Assembly: GCA_015143295.1 (NCBI GenBank)
Contig: JABCRI010001044.1
Coordinates: 1 to 64,000 of the forward strand
DNA length: 64,000 nucleotides
Source of the DNA: Tetracentron sinense
Taxonomy: Eukaryota; Streptophyta; Magnoliopsida; Trochodendrales; Trochodendraceae
Reading direction: 5' to 3'
The stretch's first letter is position 1. Each line of letters starts with the position of its first letter. The notes under the pieces were generated by a model, which saw only the letters and a list, made by a program, of their open reading frames with translations, ran no database searches and was not told where the DNA came from. A program made the position numbers and the translations under genes. This document shows positions 26,551 through 64,000 of this stretch, in pieces.

Positions 26551-27770
26551 CACTTCTTTAGCTTTCTCTTTCATCTCGAATTCTTTCCATAGTCTTTTCA
26601 ATTTAACTAAGAATGCATTCCCTTCAAAAGACTACTAACTTTCTGATGCAACAATACATAGGCATTTTCATGAGACTTGTTAGGACTGCCTTTGATATCG
26701 ATTTGTTGCCAATCTAGACGCTTGCCCAAGATTTGGACTCGCCGGATTGACAACCATAAGTATCATGTGCCGAAAGATCCCCCCAATGGAGCAGAGAAGG
26801 AAGCTTGGACAATAATAATCACTAATTAGCCTGAGTGAATGACTGGTGGAACCATTGACTAGAAAGAAAGAAAGTGTTATCTACCCCTATTATAAGTTAT
26901 AACAATTAATTTAATAACCAAATAAAGATGAGGAAAAATGACATGTAACCTACTTCAACACCAACATGAGAAACATGGTGGCTGTGATGGTTGTAAAGGC
27001 CGGCGGGCCATTGATCAGACGGTTAGGACTGTCCAAATAGCATTGATTTGGTTTGTGGCCAATCCAGATGCTGACACAAGATTTGGACCTCTGGATTGAG
27101 AAACATGAGCTTTCTTGGTCAAAAGATCACCCCAAACAAGCATAGAAGGAAGCTTGGACAGTAGGACAACTGGAAAAACTTACTTAGCAATCACAATTTG
27201 CTTGTAGAAAAAACCTTCTCTGCAGAAAACCTTCTCTGCAGAAAACAAAACAAAATGTAAGATAAAAGACAAAATTTTGACTAATCTAACTAAATGATCC
27301 CCACAATATCTGATACAGCAGAAGCTCCAACTTGTACCAATTTCTTTTTTGTAGTATGTAATTTACATGGATGTACAAAAAAAAGTGATTTCTACAGTAT
27401 GTTGATACTTTTATCCAAGACAAAAGCATTCTTGAGGATATATTTTAATAGATCTATCTCATCCTTCCATTCTGTAAACCCATTCCAGACTTGAGGCGAT
27501 ATAAAATGCAATCAAAGGTTGCCCTTGTGATTCCCATTAGTCTTGATGGAAATTAGAGTTGCTGCCAGTTTCATGTAATTCTGAAAAATCAAATATTTTA
27601 TTTTATTTTATCTTGTGCAAGACCTACGTAGAAGTGTGGTAAACTAAGAAAAAATGTAAAGTGATTGTGATAATAACCATAAGCAATAAGTGAATATACC
27701 AAGTACCCAATTCAAGTTAATATCAAGGCTACCTTGAAATCACTAAGAGAATAAAATTACAACATAAAAT
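26551..27770. repeat. Shared array modules upstream and downstream of fragment D
   Basis: 26551-27165 carries the GGCCAATCC-type segment twice, including the empty hAT site at about 26735. 27166-27770 is the 3' flank with the TCTGATACAGCAGAAG and GATAATAACCATAAGC landmarks. No gene. Confidence 0.6.
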
Positions 27771-33739: not shown

Positions 33740-33795
33740 GAAATTGCTACGAGAATAAAATTTCTGCATCAAGTGAGGCTTTTGGGAAGCTTGAC
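33740..33795 (-). pseudogene. FBD exon 3 remnant, copy G
   Basis: Only the last few codons and end of an FBD exon remain (ATCAAGTGAGGCTTTTGGGAAGCTTGACATTTTT region on the plus strand, cut at about 33800 by a MITE). Evidence of a further lost gene copy. Confidence 0.6.
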
Positions 33796-42207: not shown

Positions 42208-44784
42208 TTAAGAGAATAAAATTACTGCATGAGGAGAGGCTCTTGGGAAGCTTAACATCTTTTGAGTAAATTCCAGCAATTTTTCGGGCATAAAACGCTT
42301 TCTCCATTTATTACATGCTAATCTCTCGCTATAAATCACCATCTTTTCTAAGACCATTGAATGCTTAAGCAAAAACTGCACTAGATCCATCTCATGGTGG
42401 CTTGCTACAAAGCCAACTATCTTAACAGTCTTGAGATTGTGCAATAGAGATGATTTCCAGTAGTTCTCTCCTTCAAAATCGTACAAGGCACAAAACTACA
42501 AATGAAGAAAACTTCAGACTCAAACTTTATTCATAAATAGATCATAAAACATATAACTCAAAATCCAATTAGATGTAGGCATAAAATAGGAATCATGTTT
42601 TTGAGGAACCCACCTTAGTGCTACTAGGGAAGGTCATGTCCACAACAAGTGTCTCTAGGTCAAAAGAACTTCTTCGCAGATTTGCTATACCAGGAAGGTC
42701 CCATTTGTCGAGGTAGGTGTCCAGTATTAAACTTTTGCGTTTAGATGGTGGAGAAGGCAGAATTTTTAGCTCCGAAGTTGACAAAACCTTAGCACAACAC
42801 AACAAAAATAAAAAGAAGATGAATTTAGAAATAGACTCCAAATGGATTAGAATTTAACACGGATCAAAAAAATATATATATAGAATTTTACATTAGAAGC
42901 AATGTATTCATGAACTCGGGAAATGGCTGAATCACTTTTGCGCAAAGGGATCTCTTATTGAATTGCCATGTAATTTGTGACCTTAAAACCGAGTCCAAAC
43001 TCGACATCTCAACCAAGTTACTAGGAACGATTAGATAGAATCAACAATGAATGGGAGTTCTCTTATTGAATTGCCATGTAACTTGTTACCTTAAAACCGA
43101 GTCAGAACTCGACAACTCAACCAAGTTACTAGGAACGCTTAGATAGACTCAACAATGGAAAATCATATAACATTACCATTTTCCACAATTCACATAAAAG
43201 TTTCTTACACCATTTTCCACAATTCACACATAAAAGTTTCTTACAAACACGATGGGATGTGTCTCACGTATACCATATTTCCCCTAATTCTAAATCGCAA
43301 GTGAACTTGTAGGACTAGCCAAGTTAATTTACATAATTCTTCTCTAGTCTTAGTTTTCAAAGCTTCGAAACACGGGACGTATTCTTCTCCAGTTATAACC
43401 GGTTTTGTCAAAACCGGTTACGCCCCTTTAGTGGCCACATGTCTCTTTTGACACCTCTTAACTATGGTTAAGATTTACTCACCCCTAAGGTTCACCCACC
43501 TGTTCATGGTTTTTAGAAAAAAAAAAAAAATTGTTAACTGTGGTTAAAATTTTCCAACTCCTAGGGTTAATTTTTAAATATATTTTCTAAAAACCAAAGA
43601 GAGGTGGGTGAACCTAAGGGGTTGGTGAATCTTAACCACAGTTAAGTGGTGTAAAAAGGGACATGTGGTGACCACAAGGTTGTAACCGGTTTTGCCCAAA
43701 ACCGGTTACAACTGGAGAAGATCACCAGTCGTAAAGAAAAAGGGTAGTTCGATACTTTGGACAAGTTCTGTTATTATAAGAAACCTCATCATAAATAAAA
43801 AAAAAATCTGAGATAATGAGATAAATGCATAGAAAGGCATACCTGCATGCACCAAGAGCCTATTGTAAGATCCTTAACATGATGAAGCTTCTCAAGAAGC
43901 TCCCTCAAAAAGTCATAGTATCTATCTTCATCCGAAGGGTCATAGACAATATGAAATATGAGGGTTGCGTGAACTAGACACGGCAAATTCGTCAAACGAA
44001 TCCTCCTATACCAGCCCCCAAGCATGGCCAATGACTGGAGATAAGGAGCTGAAATTTTTACCACTGAATCTAAATTCATAAAATCGTACTGATCATCAAC
44101 GTCACCGTCGTGTATTATCAATTTTTTGAGACTTGGGGAAGTAATATTCAGATGCTGAAGGCCGCCAATTAATTCCAAATCCAAAACTTCGAGCGAAGGA
44201 CTACCTGATAATATGTCTTGGATCAAATTGTCGCTCAACTGAATGCAACTCAGAGATAAGGATCTGAGTAGTCTCCATGAAAATAACCCACGGGGTCTGA
44301 TATGGATGAAGCACAACTTCAATTTTGTTAGGTATGCGTTGTTGTATAGATGTTGAGGTAATTCGTAAGGATCATCTAGCGAAACGTGATCGAACAAGAA
44401 TAGATCGAGTTCTTCAACCTTCCTTCTCACCGCAAAACGGATCCATGAGTCTAAATGAGAGGCAAGCCCGTCAGTGCAAGCGAAATCAACAAAAAACTTT
44501 CGAATTTTGGAACCTTCATAGAGAACTAGAGTGCGGTTGACGAAGTTAACATAGCTGTCCGCCTTTACGTATGAATTAATAAAATCAAGGTCTGAGACCG
44601 AAGCCCAGAGGTGTTCCCATCTTTTGGATAACACGCCCGTCTTTACAGCTTCTTGCATGGGCAGCAAGGAGAGGATTTGATGGAGGACAAAGTCCGGTAA
44701 CCCTGATATTCGATCAACGCTGCAAGTCCTTGGCCGTTTGGGCCTAGTAGTTGATTCATGGGAACTATCGGCTATCTCCTCCAT
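42208..44784 (-). CDS. F-box/LRR/FBD protein gene, copy E (intact)
   Basis: Exons 44784-43843 (314 codons), 42787-42614 (58 codons) and 42495-42208 (95 codons plus TAG), all phase 0 with GT...AG. The product is about 467 aa. F-box at residues 23-62 (VDRISGLPDFVLHQILSLL, LSKRWEHLW), LRR-like middle (DPYELPQHLYN, GSPSLEVLDLEL, ISAPYLQSLAML), HHVKDLTIGSWCMQ, then FBD (WRKRFMPEKLLEFTQKML). Exon 3 uses an acceptor (TTTGTAG) about 20 bases upstream of the one used by copies B and C, adding FCALY. It lacks about six residues (PSFQC region) that copy F keeps. Intron 1 (1055 bp) holds a foldback MITE and a 110-bp tandem duplication. By family, an SCF substrate receptor, target unknown. The sequence is clearly more diverged from A-C than those are from each other, so it is an older branch. 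Confidence 0.9.
42945..43165. repeat. Tandem duplication in intron 1 of gene E
   Basis: Two adjacent copies of about 110 bp (TCTCTTATTGAATTGCCATG ... CAACCAAGTTACTAGGAACG). Other gene copies have one. Confidence 0.8.
43378..43728. mobile_element. Foldback MITE in intron 1 of gene E
   Basis: The cleanest family member. Arms of about 140 bp: TTCTTCTCCAGTTATAACCG, AAAACCGGTTACG, GGCCACATGTC, GGTTAAGATTTACTCACCCC on the left and the inverse on the right, ending AACTGGAGAAGATC. The RNA of gene E would carry it as a hairpin before splicing. Confidence 0.82.
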
Positions 44785-45124
44785 GATTTCACTTCTTTCT
44801 CAACAAAGTAATGCTGAAGGTAAAGAGTACACAAAGGCATTAAAAAGAACTGCTTAGACGTACCTTTGGAATCCGGAAGGTACATGAACTGTTTTTTTGC
44901 TTTTTTGGTACATGAACGTTGGAAGTTGGAAGGGAACCACAAGAGTGTTTAAATGCCAGAACTCTTGTGAAGCTGTTAAATTCGTACATGCATCCTCGCC
45001 ATTACACAGTCATGCACACAGGAAAGTTATAGACAATTTGCTTCCCTTTCGTAGGAAGATTGACGATTTGCTTGCCATTAAAAGGTAGACGATTTGCTTC
45101 CCTTTGTAATTCGAAGGTTAGACC
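44785..45124 (-). promoter_or_regulatory. Upstream region of gene E
   Basis: The leader resembles that of gene C just before the ATG (GAGAAAGAAGTGAAATC). Further up, GTTCATGTACC occurs twice and CTTCCTATTAAAGG-like text follows. No clear TATA box. Confidence 0.35.
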
Positions 45125-45290
45125 AAATCCTCCATAACCAGATTTGGCAAATCCGATTATCACCCCGGTCCATGTCCCTTTTGACACTCCTTAATTGTGG
45201 TTCAGAATACTCACCCACCCTTGGTTTTTAGAAGAAAGAAAAAAAATTAAATCTTTTTTTAAAAATTATTTTAATATTAATTGTGTAAAC
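45125..45290. mobile_element. Partial foldback MITE
   Basis: One arm only: GACCAAATCC, CATGTCCCTTTTGACAC, CTTAATTGTGGTTCAG, CCTTGGTTTTTAG. Confidence 0.5.
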
Positions 45291-45367
45291 GTTAGATGTC
45301 CTTGATAACAAACTGATGGAAACTCTTGAGTCTTGAGGCCGTTGTTTCCTTCGTAATTAAGTAAGCC

Positions 45368-45540
45368 TGACTAGCCTAACTATTGAAGTCGACTTAGAGT
45401 TGCATAAGGGCGGCTAAGGCTCATGAGATAAAAATGGGGATTTTTGCAAATCAGCCAACTAGCCTAACTATTGAAGTCGGCTTAGAGTTGCATAAGGGCT
45501 AAGGCTCATGAGATAAATAGGGTTTTTTGCAAATCAGTTG
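45368..45540. repeat. Tandem duplication of about 105 bp
   Basis: Two copies of CTAGCCTAACTATTGAAGTC ... GGCTCATGAGATAAA ... TTTGCAAATCAG. Confidence 0.8.
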
Positions 45541-45699
45541 CTACATTCTAGCTACTTTGCAAATGTTCTGTGTAAATCATGGTTTTGCAACCATTAGACA
45601 AACAACCCCTCGTTAGACTTTCATTTGTTATTGTTAGTAAAATGATTATTATGTCCTCCAGGATAATTCAGAACCTTTCAAAGCCTTTCACTTCCTTAA

Positions 45700-46140
45700 T
45701 CTATGGTTAACAAGTTTTAATTTTATGGTTAATTTGTCCCATTTAACTCCCTTCAAATATGATTAAAATTCACACCCTTAAGAATTAAGCATCTAACCTT
45801 GGTTTTAAAATAAAAATTAGCATGTTTTTTTTTTAATTTTTAACTCCCTTTAATTGTGGTTAAGATTCACACCCTAAGGACTAAAGCATCTAACCTTGAC
45901 TTTTAAAAGAAAAGAATTAACGTGTCCCCTTTTCAACTCCCGTTAACTGTGGTTAAGATTCATTAATCATTAGAATTAAATCATCTAACCTTGGTTTTTA
46001 GAAAAATTAACGTGTCCCTTTTTAACTCCCTTTAACTATGGTTGAGATTCATCACCCTTAGGGTTAAAACATCTGACCTTAGTTTGCTAAAAGAAAAATA
46101 AACGTGCCTTTTAACTCCTTTTAAGGTTCACTAACCCTTA
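45700..46140. repeat. Tandem array built from a MITE arm
   Basis: Four to five units of about 100 bp, each with AACGTGTCCC, TTTAACTCCC, GTGGTTAAGATTCA, the GGGTTAAA/CATCTAACC pair and CTTGGTTTTTA. This is the foldback family arm repeated head to tail. Confidence 0.7.
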
Positions 46141-47184
46141 AGATTGCATTCGCTTCAAAAGATAAGATTGTTTTTGGTTGGAACAACGCCGGTGGACGGC
46201 TGATCAGACTGTTCAAATTGTCCAAATAGCATTGATTTGGTTTGTGGCCAATCCATAGGTGACCCGAGATTTGGCCCCAGACTGAGAAGCAGGAGCATTG
46301 GTGGCCAAAAGTTCACCCCAAAGGAGCCGAGAAGGAAGCTTGGACAGTAGGTCGGATGGAAAAACTTTCTGGTTCAGGATTCCCAATTGATCTATTCTAT
46401 TTTCAAGGTAGACAATCACATGGACCATAAATCATGAGTCATAGGACACATGAACTAGACTACTCTCCAGATCCACCAACTAGAACTATCTGTTTGGCAA
46501 GCATTAATAGGTAGGTCCAGCCCTTTTAATTCATTATTCGGGAAGGATCCGAATCCGCAACCAATAGATCTATGAGCCGGGGCAAAGGTAAGGCCAGAAC
46601 CGCGGTAAGAAAGTTAGTTGGAGCATAATCACAACTGTTTGTAAGAAAATCTTATTTACAAAAAACACAGCAAAATTTATGATAAAGACAAAATCTTAAG
46701 TACTCTAAATAAATGAGCCCCACGATGTCTAATATAGCAGAAAAGCTCAACTTGCACCACTTTCTTTTTTGTGCTATGTAATTTACAAGAATGTAGCACA
46801 AAAAAAAATGTAATTCCTTCTATATGTTGATAATTTTATCCAAGACCATAGCATTCCTGAGGATATATTTCAATAGATCTATCACATCCTCCCATTCTAT
46901 GAATCCATCTATATCCATAGACATGAGGCAATATAAAATGCAATCATTTGATTGGCATTGTGATTCTCAAAAGTCTTGATGGAAACTAGAGTTTCTGAGA
47001 AATGCCAATTTCTTGTAGCCCTGAAGATCAATATTTTATTTAATTTTTATCTTTTGCGGGACTGACATAAAAATGTGGTAAACAAAGAAAAATGTAAAGT
47101 CGTCATGATAATAACAAGAAGCAATAAATTAGTAAACCAAGTACTCATTTCAAGTAATTACCAAGGCTACCTTGAAATCACTAA
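46141..47184. repeat. Shared array module downstream of gene F, with a 250-bp insertion
   Basis: Landmarks as in the other units (TTGGTTTGTGGCCAATCC, TCTAATATAGCAGAA). 46372-46622 has no counterpart elsewhere and is richer in GC. The module ends at the Harbinger insertion. Confidence 0.6.
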
Positions 47185-49777
47185 GGGCTTGTTTGGACGA
47201 TAGGAATTGCAATATCATGGATATTGCAATTGTGTGGAATTATAATATCATTCAATTAGAATGCCTACGCATTGGAATTCTACTATTTGGCCAAGACCAT
47301 GAGAATTACTGAAAATATCATCTGAATTCTAATTCCATTGTTAACATGCTTACAAGACTACATGATAATTCATTTGTTTGTCCAATAGAAATGATATACA
47401 TACATGTCCTCCAAAAAAAAAAAGATAAGATGAATAAATAAATAAAAACTAGACTCAATTACAAAACTAAATTAAACTATGTCTGTAAAAATTCGAAAGC
47501 AGCATCAAGACTAAGTGAAAAGCCTCTTCATTCAATCTCCCACTGTCTAGATGATACTAGAAGTTATGATACACGAAGTTAAGACAACGACACCAGTGGC
47601 AATGCTCGTTCCCATTTACTCCTCTAAACAATATCATCAATCCCACCGGAAACCTGAAATTTGTAACATAATAACTATTAAAGCTAGTTTCTAAGATGAT
47701 AGGTATGAATATCAAATGATGCTCCTATATGCATTTCTAGCAGATACCAGAATTGTATAGTAACTAATATGTTGGAGTACAATGGCATAGAATATTATAG
47801 ATGCTGAAGCTAACCATATAGATGATGTTGCATTTTGGATTGCAGTTTGAGAGACCTTGCTTGGTCTCCATAAAAAAAAAATATTAAACCTGAAATGCAA
47901 CCTCGGCAATTCCCTTACTTCATACTTTTGAATATATTTCTATTCCAGATCGATCTACACAATATATGGGAAATTCAGGTTAGGCAAAACTAGCTTCAAG
48001 TTCTATTCTATATGTAACACTAGTTGACTATAACCTATTCACCTTCCTTTATCTTCTCCATACATGATGCACTATAATGTACACCTGGCCATAACTACTA
48101 AATCACTTTGATGATCTCATTCTCGCCCATCCAGATGATGCCAACCTAAAGCACAGTCTCACATCTTTTATGGCACTTGATTAATTGGTATCCAACATAC
48201 TTTCAGCTTTCTCCTCCACTCATGTGCAGATGTTTTCTTCTATTGGATCAACATAAATAATTGAACTAATACTATATATATCATCACTTTTGTCACCATA
48301 GGTTTCAGAACACAAAAGCTGCCTTGTAATATTAGGGAGAAGGAAGCAAGATCGTTGATTCCTAGCAAGCTTATTATAAGATCATGACTGGTTTTATTCG
48401 ATACCTAGAAGGTTTCCCTTGGTCACTAGGATACAGTTCTAAGCATAGATTTAAACAAACCCTTTTGGTCCTTTAACCAAATCTAGTAGATGAATCTTAC
48501 TCTAGTGTATGTTTTCTATTGTGCAAAATGAGAGAGGGTTGGAAACTCTATAGAGAACTTATGACCCTAATGAAAGGCTAGGAGAATGAAGTTCCATGCA
48601 TGAACAGATAATATGCACTATCTTTATACACACCCCTCTGCAAACTAAGAATTATGGTAATTAGTATATCTAGTATCTACATAAATAATAGCAAGGCATC
48701 TAGTGAAAGAATTTGACAACCACTAAATAACTATCCAATGCACCTATACACATTCTATCTCTTGGTAACCAAGTGACTATGTAATACATTCAGATAAAAG
48801 TAAGGATCCAAAGATTCACCAAAGACAAATCCAAGCTATTGCATTTGCACCCTACCATGTTACAAGACCCCCCTTCTATTTTTTTGGTGTAAAGCCCATA
48901 GTGCAAAGAAGTAGAACCAGTTTCAGTTATCGGACAGTAGTATCTTTTCTTCCACCCATGTACTTGTTACCTACCTATATGTATATCCCATCCTTTTCAA
49001 TCTTCTTTTTTGGGGGTTGAGATGAAGTTCTGGACTACAGAGATGTATCAGCAAGCAAGGAATATAATCTTTTTATAGTCTTCAATATTGCTCCTCTCTC
49101 TATCTAAAATTATCAAATGGGTTACCATTCAAAGCTCTACTAATCCACCCTTTAGCTACCTCTATATGCTTGAGAATGTGGCAGAATGCATTGCAAAGCT
49201 TGTAAGAAAAATCAACATCTTCCCTTCCACATAATTCCCACAGATTACAAATAAGGGGGAAGAAAATAATCAACAAATGACTTACCAAAAAAGTAAATAA
49301 ATAAAGGAAAATAATCAAAATTTAATAATATATAGCATTGCAGAGCACAGTAGGATTTGATGGTGCTTTTACATCATATTGTATTAATCATTCCCCTTTA
49401 TAAAATTTTAACTGTTCATCAGTGAGGCAACTACTGGTCTGAAACTTTCCACAGACAGATCAGCAGATCAGATAGCCTCAATTGGTGTGCCTTTGTGGAT
49501 GGCCAAATAAGGATTAACATTTTCGGGTTCAAACTCAGTTTTCAGTCACAATTTAACAAACATGTAGCTATTGAATAGTATTCATTACTACTGAATTTGT
49601 CCAACAGAGAGGCTAATATCGAAACAAATGCAGGATCACTTTAATTTTCTCAAATCTAACTCCACTCCCAGGAAAACAAAAATTAAAAGAAAAGAGAAAT
49701 TCAGAAAATTCCTAGTCTCATAAACTTCGTCAACTGATCAAGAAAAAATATCAAATGCATGCTCGTACAATCAACAA

Positions 49778-49780
<3 letters not shown>

Positions 49781-49814
<34 letters not shown>
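49781..49814. repeat. (AG)n microsatellite
   Basis: About 17 AG units in the Harbinger interior, followed by AAAGAGATGG. Confidence 0.95.
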
Positions 49815-49821
<7 letters not shown>

Positions 49822-50035
49822 TGGAAGACCTGATGCCATCGTCGATGCCGTCACCGGTGTATGGACAAAGATAAGGTTCGGTTTGAAACAGGATGAAAAG
49901 AAATGAGTTCAAAGAGAAATTACAAAAAAAATATGGAAAGAAATGTTGGGGTCAGGGTTTATGTTCAATTCTATTGAATTGGAATTGGAATCTCTACCTA
50001 AGAGGATAGATATTTCAATTCTAATGAAACATAGG

Positions 50036-50932
50036 TGTGAGGGAAAAAATACCGGACGGACACGCGTCAGCAGCAGCTTCTTCCACGTTTTGGTTTACTG
50101 GCAGAAGGTAGGAGCGGAGGGTGTGGCACCCTGACCTGTACTCCGATGGTAAAGTCAGTAAGGGTAGAAGATGATGAATAGTAAACGCAAGAACAATCAC
50201 TGAAAAATACGCAAGACACTAAAGGCCCTGAACGCGTCTTCTCGGATCTGGGTTTTTGAACAACTGTCCTGTGCACTAAAAATCACGGGGTTTATATAGG
50301 GCAAGGTTGGTATGGCCATCGATGACCATGGATGGCCATAGGTGTCCATACCACGTGTCTTTGCACTCATTGCCAAATATCTTGCATATATCTGCCGCCG
50401 GTTGCATTACACGTGAGAGCCTCCTATAAGTCCAATCGGACGGGATCGGTCGGTACGCAGAAGTGACCAGCATTAAATGCCAAGACAGTGCTTTCGGCAC
50501 GAAACGACACGTTCGGCACGCTTGTCGGAATTATGGATCGCCTCCTGATCACTTCCTCCTACGAGCCGGTCTCGTTGTCGACTTAAGCTCGGTTACGACG
50601 TAGATGCCTTAAAACACAGCACGACATCGTTGTCAGTGAGACAACGGACTCGTTGTTCGCGTAACGACAATTGACGTTGTCAAGAGCACAACGCTCACGT
50701 TGTGCTTCAGACAACGAGCTCGTTGTCGAGACCACAACGGAAACGTTGTTCTTCGTGAGAACAAAGATGTCGCAATGCGCACAACGGGATCGTTGTACGT
50801 CAGACAACGTGTGACCCTTATATTTTAAGCACGTGGCCCCAACTCGTGAACACGTGTCACTTTCGTGAACAAAACGACAAAAACGAGCTCGTCCCACAAC
50901 GCTGAGCTGGTACACGAATTTTATCCGTTACA
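50036..50932 (-). repeat. Tat element 3' LTR
   Basis: 897 bp, TGTAACGG...CCCTCACA in element sense, same as the right LTR in my reading. A polypurine tract (AAAGGGGCAAA) adjoins it at about 50933-50945. Confidence 0.95.
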
Positions 50933-51271
50933 ATTTGCCCCTTTATGATGCTTGGAACGTAGTTCGAAGCGTCATAAACGAACAAAAAGATCATACCTGG
51001 CACCACTCCGGAAGGCGAAACGTTGCGTGCTTTAAACGCTTATTGAGAAGGTCGACCGTTCACGCCAGCTGGCCACGCGTGCGAACCGTCGCGTCTCTTC
51101 AATGCGGACAGGCTGTCATCATCACCGATTTAAATTTCGAGAATGCTTTAATGACCCTGACGGTTATCATACTCGGTGAAAAGACGATCTTGCCACTGCT
51201 CTTAATCCTGTAGATACAGGTGTACGCCTCAGATGAAGGGTAACGGTGTACTTTCGCAAACCAGAGACGTC

Positions 51272-51278
51272 TATAAAA
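51272..51278 (+). promoter_or_regulatory. TATA box of the antisense gene in the Tat element
   Basis: TATAAAA followed about 20-30 bases later by a CT-rich start-site-like run (CCTCTCTCTCTCCCACC), reading opposite to gag-pol. Confidence 0.6.
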
Positions 51279-51536
51279 TCCCATCGAATCCTCTCTCTCT
51301 CCCACCCTGTTTCATCAAGCACTGTTACTCTGTCGAATCTTCTTCTTGCCCGAAAGTTCATCCTCCTCAAGCTCTTCAACGATCTTTCTGAGTTTTTCAG
51401 TTCGGTACGCCCTTCATCCCTATCTCTTATTCTCTCTTACTGTTTTTCCATTTCTCTCTTCTCTGGTTCCCAGTGTGGTTTTGTTCTGCGCATACTCTTC
51501 TGTTCCTGTCCCTCTTTCCGATTTCTCCTTACCACC

Positions 51537-53990
51537 ATGGCTGCCAATGTCCCCGTAGAACCTGCTAGGATAGAGGGAGTTAGAGGCCCTTCTGATGACG
51601 AGGCCAGTTGCACAGGTAGCGCACCTCATGGTGCCTACATTGAAAAATCTTCAGTTCTGCGCCAATTCCAGTTGGCGCATCTGAATCGTTACAGGGAACG
51701 TTTCGACTTCCCTGCCGATGTCAATCTCCATTTCATGCGAGATGATGCCATCATAGACAGGCGCTCTGCCTGTACCGTTGTCTACCTCTCCCAGCTTGAG
51801 GCTGGCCTTCGCTTCCCTCTTCATCCTGTCTTGGATGAAGTTCTGTCCACCTTGCAACTTGCACCGGGGCAAATGCACCCGGGCTTCCACAAATACATGT
51901 CCATGATGATCAAATTCATCAAGGACGGGTACCCCATAGAGGCTAGGCATCTATTCCACTTCTGTCATGCCGTCAGATGCCGAGGCAATGACGACGGTCT
52001 GTATTCCTATTTCTCGTGGAACAAGAAACCCTACTGTCCAGAGCTCGTCTCGGGCATCCTTGACAGAGAAAGGAAATGGAAAGCCACTCCATTCGTCGTC
52101 TCTGGCGGCTGGAAGGCAGAGAATTCCTCGGTCCCCAACGTCTTCCGAGTGGAAGCAGGTATACTACTAGTCATCCGTTGTCCGTTGTGCGCCATTGTCC
52201 TGACTACGTTCTCGTTGTACACTGTATCTTCTCGTCCTGCTAACTTCCTCGTTGTACTCACTTTGTTTTCTCTTGTGTGCAGTGGACCCAAAGAAATTTC
52301 CATACAAGAAGTTGACCTCAGAGGAACAAGAACTTCTTACTGGTATCCGCCGTGCTCGAGGCGGGGAATACATTAGGTGGAAACCACTCGAGCTCGTCAG
52401 GCGGGGCTCCTCCAGTAACCCAGCAACTACTCAACAACAACCACAACAACAGCAACAGGGCGCCTCCCCCTCTGTACCTTCACCGTTCCCTCACCTACCC
52501 GAAGAAGAGGAAGAAGCAATGGCCGACTCAAACCTACCGCCGCTGAGCAGGAAGCCGAGGTCCGCTCGCCCTGCAGTCCAGCCGCCTCCACCTCCATCAT
52601 TGCCGAAGAAGAAGAAGAATCATTCTTCCAAGGGTACAGCGCCTGCTGACCCGAAGAGAAAGATTGCCGCCCCGGCCGAGCACGAGGCCAGGAAGAAGGC
52701 CAAGGCGGACAAACGCCCGGAAAAAGAGGTCGTGGTCATTGCTGCTCCTCCTCTAACAAACCCAGGAGTCGAGGCGACATCGGCAGTGCCCGAGGATAGC
52801 TCAGCGCCTGCCCCTTCTCGAGCTGCTGCTGCCCCAGCCGGTACGAGCTCCGCTGTCGTTGCCTTGGCGGCAACGGAAACTGGCACGACAAGTCTCCCGG
52901 CCAGTATGCTGCCGACCTCCGCTCCGGACTGGTCACCCGACTTCACTCGGTTCGGAGTGCCGACCGTGATTGAATCGGCGAAGAGCTCGAGGACGGCTGC
53001 CCGAGCTCTAACTTATGCGATGAGGCTCCCCAGGGACATCGCTGAGGTTGGCCAACTCCACTTAGCCGACCTGTCCTACGCCGCCTGTCAGTCCGTGGCA
53101 ACAGTAAGCTTCTCCCTCCCTCGTCTTCTACCTCAATTGTTTTGAAGTACTACTTCTTGTTGTGCTAACGCCCAGACAACTCTTTGCAGATGAACGCGCT
53201 CGTGCAAGAGCTCTGCGATCGCAGCCAAGACAAATACACTCAGCTACGAGACGGGATCAACTACTGGAAAGACAGGACGGAGACGCTGGAGAAGACTCTT
53301 GTCGAGGAGAGACTCAAGGCAGACTTCGATCTGTCTCAAGCCAAGGCCGAAACGACTCGTGCTGAAGTAAGGCTAGGCACTGCCACCAAGGTTAGGGAAA
53401 AGGCCGAAGCTGAGGCACGAGCAGCAAAGGAGGCCGAAAGGAAGGCCAAGCAAGAGACTGAGAATGCTATTGTGCGCATCAGTGAGCTTGAGCATGTCTC
53501 CCAAGCTTTGGGTAGACAACTGGAGGAAATTGAGGCAGCCAGGTCGGCGCTGGCGGAGGAGCTCGAGGAGGCCAAGAAAATTCAGGAGGACACCGAGAGG
53601 TCCGTGACCCTGAGACTGCAGCAGTATTATCAGTCTCAGCTGGACACGCTCTTGGATGAAGACCGTGCCGAGACCGAGAAGGAGGTCCTCGACTCGCTTC
53701 GCCAGCAAGGCCGCCTGAAGGAAGACAATGAAGAGGACGTCACCACGTTCTCCGAGCTTCAGAGCAAAGAACTGATCGAGCTCGACAACGAGCCCGAGGT
53801 GCAAGGTGTCGAGCTGCCTCACTTCCTTGAAGGTCCTGCACCCCTCCCTGCCGAGCCGTACTCTGAGTCTGCTGCTCCAGAGCTTCCTCCTGCTGCCGAT
53901 GAAGTTACTCCGGTGGAAGCTAACACTGCTGAAGTTTCTACCCCTGCCCCTGCTACAACGGCGACGGAGGCTGACCTTGAGCTTGCCTGA
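51537..53990 (+). mobile_element. Antisense gene of the Tat element
   Basis: It starts at an ATG in a strong context (ACCACCATGG). The first part carries a motif of the plant putative gypsy-type transposase domain (GLRFPLHPVLDEVL, LAPGQMHPG). The middle is Pro/Gln/Ala-rich with basic patches. The last part is a long coiled coil. Two short introns with canonical ends are likely (about 52159-52282 and 53104-53189), and a poly(A)-like tail region follows near 54130. Antisense genes of this kind are known in Tat elements but their function is not. Base composition is much GC-richer than the host genes. Confidence 0.75.
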
Positions 53991-54309
53991 CCTGCTGTCC
54001 CTCCGATTCCCTGCTCTGCTGTCCCCTTGTCCCTTCTTCTGTTTCCGCTTCTGTCTTTTGTCGATGTAACTTCTCCCTTCTCCCTTTATGGGAGTTCACT
54101 GACTGTAACTGCCCAGAAATGGGCTTCTGATATGAATGAATAGCTCTTCCCTTATTTATTCGTGTTTGCACTTCTTTCACCTCGTAGCGTAGTTCGATGC
54201 ATGCACACAGAACAAGAAAGAAAATACAACGTGAGTAGCTGAACGATTTTTCACAGTCCACTGTACCGATGTTAAGGCGGTACTTCGCTATGTGAACGTT
54301 CGGATACTT

Positions 54310-54895
54310 GCGAGATTATAACTATTGTCTGCCAAATAAGCTATTTCGACCAAAACATTACGAGCAAAACACTATGAGTAAAATGTCATGGTCAAAGCAC
54401 AACGAACAAAACACTACGTACAAGCACTACGATCAAAACACTACGATCAAAGCACTTTTTGAGCAAAGCACTACAAGTAGAGTACTACGGGAAGAGCACT
54501 ACGAGCAAGCAACATGAGCAAACACTACAAGCAATCACTTATGACCAAGCACTACGAGCGTTCACTATGATCATTCACCATGAGCAAAGCACTAAGACCA
54601 ACCACTTATGAACAAGCACTACGATCGTTCACCATGATCGTTCACCATGAGCAAAGCACTAAGATCAACCACTTATGAACAAGCACTACGATCGTTCACC
54701 ATGATCGTTCACCATGAGCAAAGCACTAAGATCAACCACTTATGAACAAGCACTACGATCGTTCACCATGATCATTCACCATGAGCAAAGCACTAAGATC
54801 AACCACTTATGAACAAGCACTACGATCGTTCACCATGATCATTCACCATGAGCAAAGCACTAAGATCAACCACTTATGAACAAGCACTACAGGTA
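54310..54895. repeat. 67-bp tandem array in the Tat element
   Basis: About four and a half near-identical 67-bp units at 54590-54890 (AACAAGCACTACGATCGTTC, ACCATGAGCAAAGCACTAAG). Before them come shorter degenerate units (GAGCAAAACACTACGA) from 54350. Confidence 0.85.
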
Positions 54896-55269
54896 ATCAC
54901 AGATCCAGACACATCATCCGCGTAATTCGTTGTGAATGCAATCTGACAAATAAAGTTCATGAGACGAACGCAACGAGACTCAGTTTCGAAGCACATGCTC
55001 AGAGGATGTCATTAGGATAAGCCACTAGATTTGCTCAGGTGACATCCTTATATAAGCCACTCGTGTTCGTTGTGAGTACGCTGTTCAGTCAATGACTTTA
55101 TTTGAATTACTTGCAAGACATTCACAATGTTACACTGATGCGTTAGATAGAGAACAGTATGAACAATGAGCAGGCACAAAATCACATGTTGAAATACAAT
55201 CACTACGACTATCTAGAATCACTGAAAACTGGCGAGTACAACGATGTATATGAATAGCATTCCACAGAT

Positions 55270-56040
55270 CCTATTGAAAGAATTGCCTCAGATTCATGAT
55301 GTTCCAAGATTTCGAGACGAGGTTACCTTGCAAGTCTTTCAAGTAACAGACTCCAGGACTTCCCAGTCGTTCTACGATATAAGGCCCTTCCCAGTTTGGT
55401 CCCAACTTGCCACTGTTAAGCTCTCTTGTGTTCTGGAACGCTCTTCGGAGGACGAGATCACCGACCTGCAGCACTCTTCGTTGTACTTTCTTGTTGTAGG
55501 CCTTCCTTAATCGTTGCTGATATCTCCTCATTTGAATACTGGCATCTTCCCGCTTCTCTTCTAGCAGATCAAGATGAACAGCCATGAGCTCTGAGTTCTG
55601 GTCTTTCTCTCCGCCCTTCTTCTTGCCGTGCCAAGAGCGCACTGTAGGCAAACTGATCTCTGTAGGAATGACAGCCTCCATGCCGTACGCTAGAGAGAAG
55701 GGAGTTTCACCGGTGGGGCTCCTTGGAGTCGTTCTGTACCCCCACAAAACGTTGTGCAGTTCGGTGGCCCACTTCCCCTTCGAATCTTCCAATCTTCTCT
55801 TCAAGGCATTGAGAATGCTCTTGTTGGCTGCTTCGGCCAATCCATTCCCTTGAGGATAATAAGGGGAAGAGAAGACGTGCTTGATCTTCAGCTCGCTGCA
55901 AAAGTCGGCAATCAGCCGACCTGAGAACTGCTTCCCGTTGTCAGTAACGATAGACTGCGGTATGCCAAATCTACAGACGATGTGTTCCCACAAGAATTTC
56001 TTCACCTCTTGCTCTCTGATACGTGCAAGGGGAACGGCTT
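55270..56040 (-). mobile_element. Tat integrase core and C-terminal region
   Basis: Integrase catalytic motif TDNGKQF, then YYPQGNGLAEAANKS and the C-terminal part (VGDLVLRR, NWEGPYIVERLG). Confidence 0.9.
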
Positions 56041-56049
56041 CAATCTACC

Positions 56050-58610
56050 GCGAGAAGTAGTCAGTTGCCACCAAAAGGAAGATCAGATTCCCTGGAGCCC
56101 TCGGGAAAGGTCCCACGATGTCAAGTCCCCACCGCGCAAATGGCCAAGGTTGGGATATAGTGCTGAGTTCTTGAGCTGGAGCATGAATCAAGCGAGCAAA
56201 CCGCTGGCACTGGCTGCACCTCTTCACGTACTTCTGAGCGTCGGCCTGCATGTAAGGCCAAAAGTAGCCTTGCCCCAGGGCTCGATGGGCAATGGTTCTC
56301 CCGCCCGAATGAATGCCACATATACCTTCATGTAGCTCAGCAAGTATCCTCTCCACGTCTGCAGGATGAACACACTTCAGCAAGGGACCACCAAAAGATT
56401 TCCTGAACAATTCTCCTTGCACCAAGGTATAACGAGATGCCTTAAACTGAATGCGTCTTGACTCCCTCACACTGATAGGGAGAACTCCGTCCTTCAGGTA
56501 AGCCACCAACCCTGTCATCCAGCTCGGGACTGGATTGACAAAGAACACTTCTCGCTGTGCCTGAAGAGCTATTGAAGGATATTCTTGAAACTCCATCAGA
56601 ATAGCCTTGGGCTCGCCAGCCTGCACCATGGAAGCTAGATATGCCAAAGCATCAGCATGCCTGTTCTCATCCCTCCGGGTGTGCCTAATCTCCACAACGG
56701 CGAATGCTTCACACAACGAACGAACGAGAGTAGCATACTGCTTCATCCGATCGTCCTTGCATTCATAAACACCATTCACCTGATTCACCACGAGCTGTGA
56801 ATCACAAAACACTCTCAACGTGGAGATCTGCAGCTCCCGTGCGCTCTCCAACCCAAGGAGTAAGGCTTCGTACTCGGCTTCGTTGTTGGAGGCAGTGAAC
56901 CCAAGACGCGACATTTTCTGCACCTTGATGTTATCCGGGCTTACAAGCACAACGCCCAATCCTGAGCCACTGAAATTGGAAGATCCATCTACGTATAACA
57001 GCCAACCGCTCCACTCCGACGACTCGGCTCCTTCCACAACGGCATCTTCGTTGTCAACTTCAATTGGGAGCTCCCGTAGATCAACAACCGTGTCCTCTGC
57101 CTCCTCTTCCACAGGGAAATCAGAAAGAAAACCCGCCATCGCTTGCCCCTTCTCTGAACTCCTGGCTCGATACTGGATATCGAACTCACTCAGAGCTACC
57201 GCCCACTTTGACATCCTTCCTGCCAGCTCGGGTCGTCCCAGCACGACTTTCAAAGGATACGTTGTGATGACAACGACAGAATGAGCATGGAAGTACGGAC
57301 GAAGCTTCTCTGCAGAAAAGACAAGAGCCAGACACACCTTCTCGAGCTTGCTATAGTTGCTCTCTGCTTTGAGAAAGGTCTTGCTGATGAAGTAGACAGG
57401 CTTCTCCACGCCATCACAGCTCCTCACCAGGACGGAACCAAGGGCTTGCTCTGAAACAGACAAATAAAGATATAAGATTTCACCTGGCTCTGGCACTGAG
57501 AGGATAGGAGCTGACCCTAAATACTCTTTCAAGGCAAGGAAAGCTCGGGAACACTCTGGGGTCCACGCAAAAATGGAGTCCTTCCTCAACAGCTCGAACA
57601 GAGGCTTGCAACGATCGGATGACTTGGAGATAAATCGGTTGAGCGCAGCAATCCGGCCTGTCAGCTTCTGGATCTCCTTCTTCGACTTAGGCTCTGGCAT
57701 GTCCAGTAAAGCACGGATTTGAGCTGGATTAGCCTCAATCCCCCGCTGACTCACAAGATAACCCAAAAATTTCCCCGAGGTGACTCCAAAGGTGCATTTC
57801 TCTGGGTTGATCTTCAGATTGAAAGATCGCAGCACAGAGAAAGGTTCAGCAAGGTCTGCCACGAGAGCACCTCGTACTCGACTCTTCACAACGATATCGT
57901 CGATGTACACTTCAACCGTCTTGCCAAGGAGTGACCCGAACATGAGATTCATCAGACGTTGATAGGTGGCACCTGCATTCTTCAAGCCAAAAGGCATCAC
58001 CCGATAACAGAACAAACCTCGCTCTGTTATGAAGGTGGTCTTCTCTCGATCTGCTTCCGCCAGTAGGATCTGGTTATAGCCCGAATAACCATCCATGAAG
58101 GATAACATCTCGTGGCCGGCAGTGGCATTGATGAGCCTGTCTATCCTTGGCATGGGAAAAAAGTCCTTGGGGCACGCCTTGTTGACCCCAGTAAAGTCAA
58201 TGCAGACTCTCACCTTCCCATTCTTCTTAGGTACCGCCACAACATTGGCTATCCAATCAGGATACTGCACCTCCTGAATGAACCCGAACTGGATCAGCTT
58301 GTCAATCTCCTCATTCACTGCATCATGATAAGCTGGAGCAAGCCTCCGAGGTTTCTGCTTCACTGGAGGGATGGCAGGATCAGCATTGAGGTGGTGGCAG
58401 ATAACTCCCGGATCGATGCCAGTCATGTCTTTGTGAGACCAAGCAAAGACATCAAGATTCTGCCTAAGAAAACACAGCAACTCGAGCTCCTCCTCCGTTG
58501 TCAAGCTCGTCCCGACCTGCAACACCTTTGGCTCTTCTTCCGTTCCCAAATTGACGGCTTTCGTGGGCTCAACGGAAGGGTTGCACAACGATGCCTCCGA
58601 GCTCTCATCC
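56050..58610 (-). mobile_element. Tat RT, RNase H, second RNase H and integrase zinc finger
   Basis: RT motifs VPKKNGKVRVCIDF, FMDGYSGYNQI and YIDDIVVKS, the RT-linked RNase H, a second archaeal-type RNase H (YVDGSSN, NNEAEYEALLLGL) and the integrase HHCC region (GIHSGGRT, CSQCQRF). In the Tat clade the second RNase H is diagnostic. Confidence 0.93.
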
Positions 58611-58639
58611 ACAACGGGAACGACCTGTAACTGCTACGA

Positions 58640-61054
58640 AGGCACAACGGAAGCTGGAAAATCGCACTTCTGCGAAGCCAACTGATCACCTCGGATCTCC
58701 CGAGGCCCGTCCTGCGTTGGATACTTCAACACCTGGTAGTACGAGGACGGGACAGCCTTCATCTCATGGGTCCACCAGCGACCCAAGATGGCATTGTATG
58801 GTGATGGCGCATCCAGAACAGAAAACCTGGTCAGGAGGACAACGGGTCCAGCCACAACGGGCAAGACAACGTCGCCTACAGGCTTCATCGAGCTGCCATC
58901 AAATCCATACAAGGGAGTCTGAGCAGGGATGAGGACGGAAGGATCCAGCTTCATCTGAGTGAAAGCATGAAGGTACAAAATGTCCGCTCCACTCCCCGAA
59001 TCCACGAGCACTCTCTTGATGTCAAAGTCTCCTATTCTCATGGTGAGAACAAGAGCATCATAGTGAGGTTGGATCACTCCTGCCAGATCACGATCAGCGA
59101 AGGTGAGTGCCTGCTCAATGCTCCTGCTAGGCACTTGCACCTGGCACACTGCGGCCTCGTGAGACAGCTTTCTGGCCTTTGCCCTGAAGTTCCTCTCCAC
59201 ATCAGCTTCAGGCGTTTGCACGCGGCAAATGACATTGATCGTGCCCAAAGAAGCTCCTCCACTGGTACTGGGATTGTTGGCGGGTTCTCTTCCACGAGAT
59301 TGGGACATCGGCTCCCTGGTACGCTCCGCCCCGCCGTTGTTAGGAGCGAGATACTCTCCCAAGTACCCCTCCTGAACAAGCCTCTCTAAATATTCCCTCA
59401 GAATACGGCACCGGTTGGTGAGGTGACCACGGCACTTGTGATAATGACAGTACTCATGCACCCGTGGTCCCGATGTGATATCCGGCACCGCCCTCGCCGG
59501 CCACTCAAAGTATGGCTGATCCTCCATTGACTTCATGATGGTCGCCGGACTGACTGTGAAATTGATGCGTGGGGCTCGATCTGTAAAAGATCGCCTCTCA
59601 CTAGGCTGCACGCCTCTCTCGTGCTGTACTTGAGGCTGCACCTGGCGTGGCTGATACGGTTGCCTCGCCTGCTGGTCATTAGGACGTCTCTCCGTCCTGT
59701 TCTGATACTGGTTAAAATTTCTCTCCAGCGGGCGCCGATCCGGCTGATCCTGCTGGGTCACATACACAACTTTCTCTTTCCGCTTCCTTGGTGGCGAGTC
59801 CTCAGATGATGAAGACTCGTGCTGCTGCTTCTTCTCCTTCCTCTTCGATGATCGGTGTGCCCTCTCCACGACATCCACCGCTCTCACCCTGGGCTTTGGC
59901 GCTGACACAACGGATACGTCCTCCTCGTACCTCCCGTACTTGGTGGCACGTACCAACAACTCGTCCATCTTGACAGGATAGTCAAGAGCTAAGGACTTGT
60001 AGAGCTCAGAATGCTTGGGGATAGCATTCTTGAAAGCGGCGATGCAGCTTGCTTCGTCAACCTTGTCAATATCGTGGACTTCATCGGTGAAACGCGAAAT
60101 GAAGTCCTTCAAGGATTCGGCCGGCTTCATCCTCAAAGAGAAGAGAGTATCTGCACCTGCCTTCTTCTTCTTATTGATGATGAAGCGATCAATAAAGGCC
60201 GACCTGAGCTCTGAGAAGTTGCTGATGGAGCCAGGAGGTAGGTTCCGAAACCACTTCGATGCTGCTCCCGACAGGCTGCTAGGGAAAGCCTTACAATAAA
60301 GATCATCATCTGGGTTGCGAACAGCCATCGCATGCTTGAAGTCAAACAAATGCTCCTCCGGATCTGTCTTTCCAGTATACATGGAGAAGGTCGGAGTTAT
60401 GAACTTGGAAGAAGTATAAGACTGGTTGATAGCATTCGTAAAAGGAGAGTTCTCAACGTTCTCCTTTGCTGACTGAGCAAAGTGGTCAGGGACCCCTCCC
60501 TTCATGCTTTTAACGCGAGCACCGATTAAAGCCTCCACCTCCTTGGCTGTTACCCAAGTCTTCTGGGTGTCCGCACCTCCGGTACCCACTCTCAGGTCCT
60601 CTCTACCTGCTCCTTCTCTGAAATCCACACGATCCGAAGGGATGCTCTGCTCTGCCCGAACCGGGGGCTGCCTTACATCCCCCTCAGTAGGAAGAAGCAC
60701 AAACCTGGTCTCACGGTTCTCCGGGGCAGAAGGAGAAGAAGAGAAGTCAAACTGACGTCTCAAGGAAGGCCTCTGCAGTGGCACCTCCTCCACCTCGAGC
60801 CTGCTATGCTCGAACGCCTCCAGCCTCGCTTGCATCAACTGTTGCTGCCTGGTGATTTGATCCAGAACAGACTGCTGCAGTTGCAGCATCGCCAAGACGC
60901 GATCTGAAACAGAGAGTTCAGCAGGGGAAGGTACGGTCCCTTCTGGTTGTCCAGACGGAGGACTGGCTCCAGGAATGTGCACGACAGAAGGTATGAAAGA
61001 AGTGGAATGAGGGGCTTGATCCTCATGCCCGAATACTTCTGACTGATCAGTCAT
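58640..61054 (-). mobile_element. Tat gag and protease
   Basis: Gag with the plant Retrotrans_gag core (FNCK/YCKAFPSSLSGAASKWF region), a basic KRKEKK-type linker, a cysteine/histidine knuckle (CHYHKCRGHLTNRC) and an aspartic protease (VLVDSGSGADILY) at the C-terminal end. Confidence 0.92.
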
Positions 61055-61380
61055 GATCGCAGAGAGCGGAAAAAAAAAGGGGGGGGGGGGTCCGTTTATT
61101 ATTTCCCACAGACGGCGCCAATTTTGTGAGGGAAAAAATACCGGACGGACACGCGTCAGCAGCAGCTTCTTCCACGTTTTGGTTTACTGGCAGAAGGTAG
61201 GAGCGGAGGGTGTGGCACCCTGACCTGTACTCCGATGGTAAAGTCAGTAAGGGTAGAAGATGATGAATAGTAAACGCAAGAACAATCACTGAAAAATACG
61301 CAAGACACTAAAGGCCCTGAACGCGTCTTCTCGGATCTGGGTTTTTGAACAACTGTCCTGTGCACTAAAAATCACGGGGT

Positions 61381-61387
61381 TTATATA
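61381..61387 (-). promoter_or_regulatory. TATA box of the Tat 5' LTR
   Basis: TATATAA on the minus strand within CCCTATATAAACCCCG, placed as expected between U3 and R. The same motif lies at 50292-50298 in the other LTR. Confidence 0.65.
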
Positions 61388-61724
61388 GGGCAAGGTTGGT
61401 ATGGCCATCGATGACCATGGATGGCCATAGGTGTCCATACCACGTGTCTTTGCACTCATTGCCAAATATCTTGCATATATCTGCCGCCGGTTGCATTACA
61501 CGTGAGAGCCTCCTATAAGTCCAATCGGACGGGATCGGTCGGTACGCAGAAGTGACCAGCATTAAATGCCAAGACAGTGCTTTCGGCACGAAACGACACG
61601 TTCGGCACGCTTGTCGGAATTATGGATCGCCTCCTGATCACTTCCTCCTACGAGCCGGTCTCGTTGTCGACTTAAGCTCGGTTACGACGTAGATGCCTTA
61701 AAACACAGCACGACATCGTTGTCA

Positions 61725-61902
61725 GTGAGACAACGGACTCGTTGTTCGCGTAACGACAATTGACGTTGTCAAGAGCACAACGCTCACGTTGTGCTTCAGA
61801 CAACGAGCTCGTTGTCGAGACCACAACGGAAACGTTGTTCTTCGTGAGAACAAAGATGTCGCAATGCGCACAACGGGATCGTTGTACGTCAGACAACGTG
61901 TG
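61725..61902. repeat. Palindrome array in the LTR U3
   Basis: Five 16-18 bp palindromes with fixed arms ACAACG / CGTTGT and variable 4-base centres, for example ACAACGGACTCGTTGT, ACAACGCTCACGTTGT and ACAACGAGCTCGTTGT, with further half-sites. The same array lies at 50636-50813 in the other LTR. Confidence 0.85.
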
Positions 61903-62155
61903 ACCCTTATATTTTAAGCACGTGGCCCCAACTCGTGAACACGTGTCACTTTCGTGAACAAAACGACAAAAACGAGCTCGTCCCACAACGCTGAGCTGGT
62001 ACACGAATTTTATCCGTTACAATAGGAATTAGACTTCTTTTCAGTTCTATGGAGATTGTAATGCCTACGAATTGGGGGTGTCCATACATCGAAATTGGAA
62101 TTCATATCTCCCAATTCTAATTCCGACCCACCAATTCCTATGGTCCAAACAAGCC

Positions 62156-64000
62156 CTAAGAGAATAGAATTACTGCATGAGATGAGGCTCTTGGGAATCT
62201 TAACATCTTTTGAGTAAATTCCAACAATTCTTCGGGCATAAAACGCTTCCTCCATTTAAGATTTGCTAATCTCTTACTATAAATCATCATCTTCTCCAAA
62301 ACCATTGCATGCTTAAGCAGAAACTGTACAAGATCCATCTGACCGTGCCCTGCAACGAAGTCAAATATCTTAATAGTCTTGAGATTGTGCAATAGACACT
62401 GGAAAGAGGGTTCCGATGATTTCCAATAGTTCTCTTCATCAAAATCATACAACGCAAGAAAATCGTTGTCAAACTGAAACCACAAATAAAGAAAAATTTA
62501 GGCTGAAGCTTTATTCATAAAGAGATCATAAAGCATAAAAATAAAAATTGTAATTAGATGTAGGAATCAAATAGGTATCATGCTTTCGAGGAACCCACTT
62601 GAATGCTGCCAGGGGAGGTAATGTTCACAACAAGCGTCTCTAGATCAGGAGAACTTCTTAATAGGCTTGCTATTCCAGGGAGGTCCCATTTGGTAATGTA
62701 GGTGTCCAGTATTAAACATTTGCGTTTAGATGATGGAGAAGGCAAGATTTTCAGCTCCCCTGTTGACAAAATCTTAGCACAACAAAACAAGAAGAAAAAG
62801 ACCATGAATTTAGTGAACCCAAAATAGACTCCAAAACAGTGATTACAACTCCGCACTAAAAGCAATGTATTCAAACCAGGAAACAGCTGGATCACTTGTG
62901 CTCGACAGGATGTCTTATTGATCTGCCATGTAACTCGTTCCTTTATAAACGAGTCAAAACTCAACCAACTTACTGGGAATGATTTGATAGACTCAACAAT
63001 AGGGGTGTATGGCTTATACCATATTCTCTTAATTTTGAATCACAGTGAGCTCGTAAGACTAGGCAAGTTAATCGATCGAATTCTTCTATAGTCTTGAGTT
63101 ATTATCAGAGCTTTGAAACACTTATTAGAAGAATAAATCACAGCAGGATATTATTACAGATGCCATATGCATAAACACACAAATTAAGAGAGAGAGAAAA
63201 GGGTAGATAGATAGACAGATATACCTGAATACACCAAGTTCCTATTGTAAGATCCTTAACATGATGAAGCTTCTCAAGAAGCTCCCTCAAAATGTTGAGG
63301 CACACTTCATAGTCGTCATCACTATCCTCATCGTCCATGACTACCTCATCCTCATCATCCATGACTACCTCATCGTCCATGACTACCTCAAAATCGATGG
63401 TTGCGTGGACTAGACACTGCAAATTCATCAAACGACACCTCCTATACCAGAACCCAAGAATGTCTAAAGACTGGAGATTAGGAGCCGATATTTCTAGCAC
63501 TGGATCGCGATCAAAAGGATTGTGGTCATCGTATTGTACTATCAATTTTTTGAGACTTGGGGAAGTAATATTCAAATGCATAAGACCTCTACATTCTTGC
63601 AAATGCAAAAATTCGAGCAAATGACTGCCTGATAATATGTCATGAATCACATTGTCACTAAAATGAACGTTAGCTAGAGATAAAGACCTTAGTCTCCATG
63701 AAATTGGCCCAATAGGTTTGATATCGCAGTAGTGCAAACTCAATTTTGTTAGAGTAGCATTGGTGTATAGATGTTGAGGTAATTGGAAACGATCAGAATA
63801 TAAAGTAGGAGATAAGTCTAGATCGAGATCTTCAACCTTCTTTCGTACCGCAAAACGGATCCATGAATCTACATGAGAGATAAACCAGTCTTCGTATTCT
63901 GCGAAATCAACACGAAACTTTCGAATCTTGGAACCTTCATGGAGAATTAAAGTACGGTCGACGAAGTTCATAAATTCTTCCTCATTTTCTTTAAGATCGT
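62156..64000 (-). CDS. F-box/LRR/FBD protein gene, copy F (5' end beyond the window)
   Basis: Exon 1 runs from beyond the right edge to 63225, exon 2 is 62772-62599 (58 codons), exon 3 is 62473-62156 (105 codons plus TAG). Junctions are phase 0. Visible parts: LRR-like region (FQLPQHLYT, GSHLLEFLHL, ISAPNLQSLDIL), HHVKDLTIGTWCIQ and the FBD domain (WRKRFMPEELLEFTQKML). The F-box should lie just outside. Exon 3 uses the upstream acceptor (TTTCAG), because the AG used by copies B and C has become AT, and so gains FDNDFLALY. Near 63300-63400 an in-frame repeat encodes EVVMDDE three times. The last G of the TAG stop is the first base of the Harbinger element, so the 3' UTR is transposon. Probably functional if exon 1 is complete, and if a new poly(A) site is used. 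Confidence 0.85.

Follow-up and report, generated by a model that had tools for sequence, protein, structure and literature searches.

A probable PIF/Harbinger-type insertion at the stop codon of a predicted F-box/FBD gene in Tetracentron sinense supplies the G of the retained TAG

Organization of the locus

The window, that is, the whole stretch of 64,000 nucleotides analyzed in this study, lies on an 82.9-kb contig (C274), and a second copy of the locus was found on a 38.8-Mb contig (C17). A gene predicted on the minus strand, referred to here as gene F, runs up to one end of a Harbinger-type element that is itself interrupted by a retrotransposon. The features of the locus are as follows.

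63225..64000, minus strand: predicted exon 1 of gene F (F-box and LRR), continuing to 64178 of C274 past the end of the window
62599..62772, minus strand: predicted exon 2 of gene F
62156..62473, minus strand: predicted exon 3 of gene F, closing with the FBD domain followed by the rebuilt stop
62156..62158, minus strand: gene F stop codon TAG, its TA from the host target site and its G (62156) the opening base of the transposon end
62157..62159, minus strand: target site duplication TTA on the gene side, read from the junction sequence
47182..47184, minus strand: target site duplication TTA on the far side (TAA on the plus strand)
62156-62145, minus strand: element end GGGCTTGTTTGG, read from the junction sequence
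62132..62156, minus strand: 25-bp terminal inverted repeat (TIR) of the gene-side end, 24/25 identical to the other end
47185..47209, plus strand: 25-bp TIR of the far end, with one mismatch against the gene-side end
47185..62156, no strand assigned: Harbinger-type element interrupted by the nested gypsy element, spanning 14,972 bp
50036..62021, minus strand (the direction of gene F): nested Ty3/gypsy retrotransposon, absent from C17
62022-62026 and 50031-50035: 5-bp duplication CCTAT of the gypsy element
46781..47181, minus strand: native gene F 3' flank, now displaced, similar to the flanks of paralogs, with AATAAA 142 nt from the TTA
27741..27749, minus strand: a paralog's unoccupied target, where CTCTTAGTG spans the stop codon, from sequence comparison

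The predicted exons (64178-63225, 62772-62599, and 62473-62156) are separated by phase-0 introns with GT-AG borders and comprise 482 codons including the stop, corresponding to 481 amino acids. Matches to PF00646 (F-box), PF24758 (LRR), and PF08387 (FBD) exceeded the Pfam cut-offs, with the F-box and LRR models in exon 1 and the FBD model in exons 2-3. These results suggest that gene F is an intact FBD-associated F-box/LRR gene. The segment 63120-62854 was considered as coding sequence and was treated as an intron because both gene F copies contain an in-frame stop there; stops were also present in three of the four other places on C274 that match this segment.

Element ends and target site duplication

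Read on the minus strand, exon 3 of gene F finishes with ATT CTA TTC TCT TA and passes directly into GGGCTTGTTTGGACCATAGGAATTG; with the junction marked by a slash, the end of the gene is TTC TCT TA/G GGCTTGTTTGG. The initial annotation had placed the target site across the last sense base and the TA of the stop codon, and the TTA at 62157-62159, repeated at 47182-47184, confirms this position. The stop G does come from the element end, as had also been proposed, since the inverted repeat begins with base 62156. A second exact GGGCTTGTTTGG was found at 47185-47196 on the plus strand, following the TAA at 47182-47184, and the window contains no third. The 12-mer match is by itself weak evidence of an element end, with 11 occurrences in the window at up to two mismatches against 5.2 expected. 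The pairing of the two ends is solid by virtue of the 25-bp inverted repeat and the matching TTA, and a BLAST comparison of the 400-bp ends recovered the inverted repeat with an E value of 7e-08. A TA target duplication of the Tc1/mariner type was rejected, because the bases adjoining the two ends share TTA, and reading the duplication as TA would make the ends unequal.

The same element on C17 is 2,948 bp long and gypsy-free, with identical junctions, and the two copies, aligned over 2,948 bases, show 10 differences. The 3-bp TTA duplication is present at both ends, and GGGCTTGTTTGG, within the 24/25 inverted repeat, has the form G(N)5GTT that is given as the TIR motif of PIF/Harbinger elements in the available part of PMC2213677. 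These two characters are common to the element and to the PIF/Harbinger and Tourist-like miniature elements (MITEs) in the accessible text of PMC2213677, PMC6327408, and PMC2836001, where the TIRs given for OsPIF2 and PePIF1 also resemble that of the element. A target preference extending beyond the duplication is likewise shared with the superfamily, as seen here in an excess of CNC on the one target side examined (see below). At 2.9 kb and without a recognized transposase, the element is bigger than a typical MITE.

No stop-to-stop frame longer than 112 amino acids was found in the C17 copy, two of its three frames of at least 60 amino acids had no Pfam match, and no transposase was recognized within the element by frame scan and Pfam comparison. 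Autonomous members carry a DDE transposase and a Myb-like ORF1, and a non-autonomous copy would be expected to lack them. The Harbinger label therefore derives from the ends, the target duplication, and the target preference, and the element is probably PIF/Harbinger-type and non-autonomous. Elsewhere in the genome, the transposase domain DDE_Tnp_4 had at least 160 matches, with 150 of 948 candidates scored. A GGGCCCGTTTGG end was located near this domain in three of eight transposase loci examined (L052, L053, and L055), preceded by TAA, AAA, and TTA, respectively, and followed by bases unlike those of the element. A transposase source among such genomic loci is plausible. Additionally, facing TIR pairs of the element's family with TAA/TTA on both sides were observed at C16:20071306-20077504, C6:7121448-7123396, and C1:48004115-48011293, and are probably additional whole elements.

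Target preference of the element family

The maize PIF target consensus is CWCTTAGWG. Within the 2.5-kb pre-insertion locus, CTCTTAGTG is the sole exact occurrence of this motif, and one further site differs from it at one base. The motif is not rare, as four copies were found in the window against 1.7 expected, a count reached in 11 of 100 shuffles. A 9-bp target composed of the duplication and three bases on either side is described for plant PIF/Harbinger elements in the available part of PMC2836001.

The 134-bp element end had at least 40 scored matches in the genome, two of which were the focus copies. Two overlapping samples of family ends were compiled, and they lend the target preference independent support from within this genome. 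For sample (a), 30 loci were reduced to 23 by removing two focus copies, four loci with more than three TIR mismatches, and one duplicate. TTA/TAA adjoined 13 of these 23 ends, with C before the duplication in 10 of the 13 (background 19%, binomial 9e-6) and CNC in 7 (background 4%, binomial 3e-7), where the backgrounds were taken from 9,264 TTA/TAA sites within the loci of this sample. For sample (b), the TIR pattern, allowing three mismatches at most, recovered 56 ends, and the reversed control recovered 0. Removal of four focus ends left 52, and removal of four likely duplicates left 48. TTA/TAA adjoined 28 of the 48, with C before the duplication in 19/28 and CNC in 13/28, the pattern largely missing ends that have a G six bases ahead of the TIR, which slightly raises C at that position. 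With the likely duplicates kept, the counts were 32/52 for TTA/TAA, 20 for C, and 14 for CNC. Family ends without an adjoining TTA/TAA (10/23 in sample (a) and 20/48 in sample (b)) speak against the preference, and they are likely decayed or misplaced.

Five of the 13 CNC contexts in sample (b) were CWC and the others were CCC. The family preference thus resembles the maize consensus with a partial fit, in which the A/T of CWC is not clearly seen, and this weakness in the larger sample slightly lowers the odds of the explanation proposed below. CTCTTA, as found at gene F, also occurs at C22:33146024 and C2:7229666, and CTC is among the family's usual contexts. The fit to the stop codon is largely explained by the PIF/Harbinger target preference, CTCTTAGTG being the best target in the gene, and the insertion site is not pure luck.

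An alternative is that the element struck at random among TTA/TAA sites and that purifying selection left only the harmless insertion to be seen. The coding sequence of gene F contains 47 TTA/TAA sites, and the protein would be kept at just one of them, the stop; surviving insertions in a working gene are therefore expected there or outside the coding sequence. Against survivorship as the only cause, no site of the pre-insertion locus other than the stop is an exact 9-bp target, and the element's family prefers CNC before the duplication. We consider this alternative rather unlikely as the whole account, and target preference and survivorship are not exclusive and may both have acted.

Paralogs and integrity of gene F

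Similarity to exon 3 was found at 27 places in the genome, mostly on C17 (32.25-32.43 Mb), C274, and C418. The F-box, LRR, and FBD domains of gene F are common to this cluster of FBD-associated F-box/LRR genes, and the insertion is unique to gene F, in its two copies, among the cluster copies whose ends were read, which are a minority of the 27. In exon 3 of several paralogs, an in-frame stop was observed near LAL*DFDGENYW or LAL*VLDGENYW, where gene F has Tyr (matches starting at 332, 8116, 12570, 18291, and 28075 on the minus strand, and also on C17), and these paralogs could use a more distal splice acceptor.

The comparison of paralog ends, over the genomic stretches retrieved, comprised 13 rows, from which two focus copies, one spurious short match, and two rows falling short of the last codon were removed, leaving eight. 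A host TAG was present in five of the eight (17986 and 27746, and on C17 83782, 113005, and 121644), TAA in one (42211), and no stop at the last codon in two, namely 12265 (one base short) and C17 72085 (TGG). An additional fragment at 33750 ends in TCG TAG. The earlier statement that the G is host sequence in the other copies applies to the five paralogs with TAG among the eight.

If gene F were a decaying or silent copy, preservation of its stop would be meaningless. Some cluster members do lack their end or stop (7839, 12265, and C17 72085), which gives this possibility some ground. However, the 481-amino-acid frame of gene F, with its F-box, LRR, and FBD, is open in both the C274 and C17 copies, which show three nucleotide differences and one amino acid difference, and we regard decay as unlikely.

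Reconstruction of the original stop codon

Joining the two flanks with a single TTA gave ATTCTCTTAGTGATTTCAAGGTAGCCTTG, read as the codons TCT TAG TGA, and the bases of paralog 27746 are identical to this sequence across the site, with close matches in other paralogs. The displaced stop base was thus also a host G. The joined flanks and the paralog ends indicate that gene F almost certainly had TAG as its original stop, with a host G in place of which the G of the element now stands. With a G at this position already present in the pre-insertion target, the predicted protein end is unchanged, as the initial annotation had claimed, TCT TAG being read before and after the insertion. No special event is needed for the rebuilding, because an end beginning with G always gives TAG when placed after T-TA. 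An original stop elsewhere, replaced by a new one created by the element's G, would agree with the G belonging to the element and is very improbable in view of the joined flanks, their match in paralog 27746, and the TAG at this codon in five of the eight paralogs reaching that far.

Genomic copies and nested retrotransposon

C274 and C17 are collinear with 98-99% identity over 62022-82913 and 45745-50035 and with 94% identity over 44196-45754. Below 44196, there was no match above 93% to the C17 stretch compared (32.22-32.26 Mb, against C274 up to 82916), and collinearity ends there. The pair fits two haplotypes of the F-box/FBD cluster, judging from the alignment; alternatively, C274 may represent an unplaced or recent duplicate of the C17 cluster. 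C17 was considered as the empty allele and rejected, as the Harbinger-type element is present there too and both copies are filled. A stretch of approximately 3 kb on C17 (~32.233-32.236 Mb) is missing from C274 at ~75956-75960, where the break shows an overlap of 5 bp, and is perhaps another insertion polymorphism.

The retrotransposon within the element was identified as Ty3/gypsy by Pfam matches of its internal frames to gag, reverse transcriptase (RVT_1), RNase H, and integrase zinc-binding domains, together with its long terminal repeats (LTRs) and 5-bp duplication. The LTRs are 897 bp long and identical to each other. On C274, the insertion point lies 135 bp into the Harbinger-type element. 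Because the C17 element is gypsy-free, the gypsy element inserted after the Harbinger-type element, and its insertion is recent and confined to one of the two genomic copies. The nesting reported in the initial annotation therefore holds for C274, with the C17 copy lacking it. Six copies at 67-bp spacing were also observed within the gypsy element (54453-54957 of the window).

Sequence downstream of the stop codon

Gene F had been thought to take its whole 3' untranslated region (UTR) and poly(A) signal from the transposon and the gypsy element inside it. The sequence downstream of the stop is indeed transposon sequence, made up of both elements on C274 and, on C17, of the 2,948-bp Harbinger-type element alone; transcripts may end in it. 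The sequence does not support the poly(A) signal placed at 62030-62155, since the 135 nt ahead of the gypsy element contain none of the 11 AATAAA-type hexamers searched for. The first of the 11 hexamers on C274 is ATAAAA at 144 nt, inside the gypsy LTR, and on C17 it is AATAGA at 191 nt (456 nt scanned). The first AATAAA past the stop lies at 1,057 nt on C274 and at 1,737 nt on C17. Among six paralog flanks of approximately 400 nt, AATAAA was found at a place similar to that in the displaced native flank in 27746 and 12265 and was absent in four. Plant poly(A) signals are degenerate, so the absence of these hexamers neither proves nor excludes a new poly(A) site in the element.

Proposed explanation

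The explanation that we favor, with high confidence, is a PIF/Harbinger-type insertion at a preferred target that kept the stop and was later joined by a gypsy insertion. It builds on the junctions, the inferred empty site and its paralog match, the open frame in both copies, and the order of insertions. A PIF/Harbinger-type DNA transposon, probably non-autonomous and presumably mobilized by a PIF transposase from elsewhere in the genome, would have entered the preferred target CTCTTAGTG at the Ser-stop end of the F-box/FBD gene. With TTA duplicated and the first base of the element, G, taking the place of the host G, TAG would have been kept and the predicted protein left unchanged. The gene's own 3' flank would have been displaced by 2.9 kb, and the later gypsy insertion, 135 bp into the element in one copy, would have increased this distance to 15 kb. 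The transcript of gene F would then end in transposon sequence, and the insertion may have been near-neutral for the gene.

Known parallels and implications

In Arabidopsis, 2,647 MITEs extend over two or more gene sub-regions; 2,308 of them lie in the last exon (partly coding sequence, partly 3' UTR) and may contribute to stop codons and new poly(A) sites, according to the available part of PMC5454002. Gene F differs from these last-exon MITEs, as presented there, in that its coding sequence gains a single element base, the stop G, without any alteration of the protein. Insertions of MITEs over the last exon and 3' UTR are known, and gene F adds an instance of that kind; a limited literature search on the theme returned no report of a transposon whose first base restores a stop. 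Overall, this is a neat yet essentially ordinary transposon insertion.

Precise excision is usual where it has been analyzed in the PIF/Harbinger superfamily, as stated in the accessible text of PMC2836001. At the stop of gene F, precise excision would likewise leave TAG. The consensus CWC TTA GWG holds a stop codon in one frame per strand, and an end beginning with G rebuilds TAG, which would make such insertions stop-safe. Whether PIF/Harbinger elements are in general stop-safe, perhaps overrepresented at stop codons throughout the genome and repeatedly giving rise to replaced 3' UTRs, is a speculative extension that we hold to be doubtful. If it is true, insertion or precise excision at such stops would leave the protein intact. 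The stop-safe generalization is directly testable in annotated plant genomes, and gene F provides a clean single-locus example in which target preference and the first base of the element end spare the protein and swap everything downstream.
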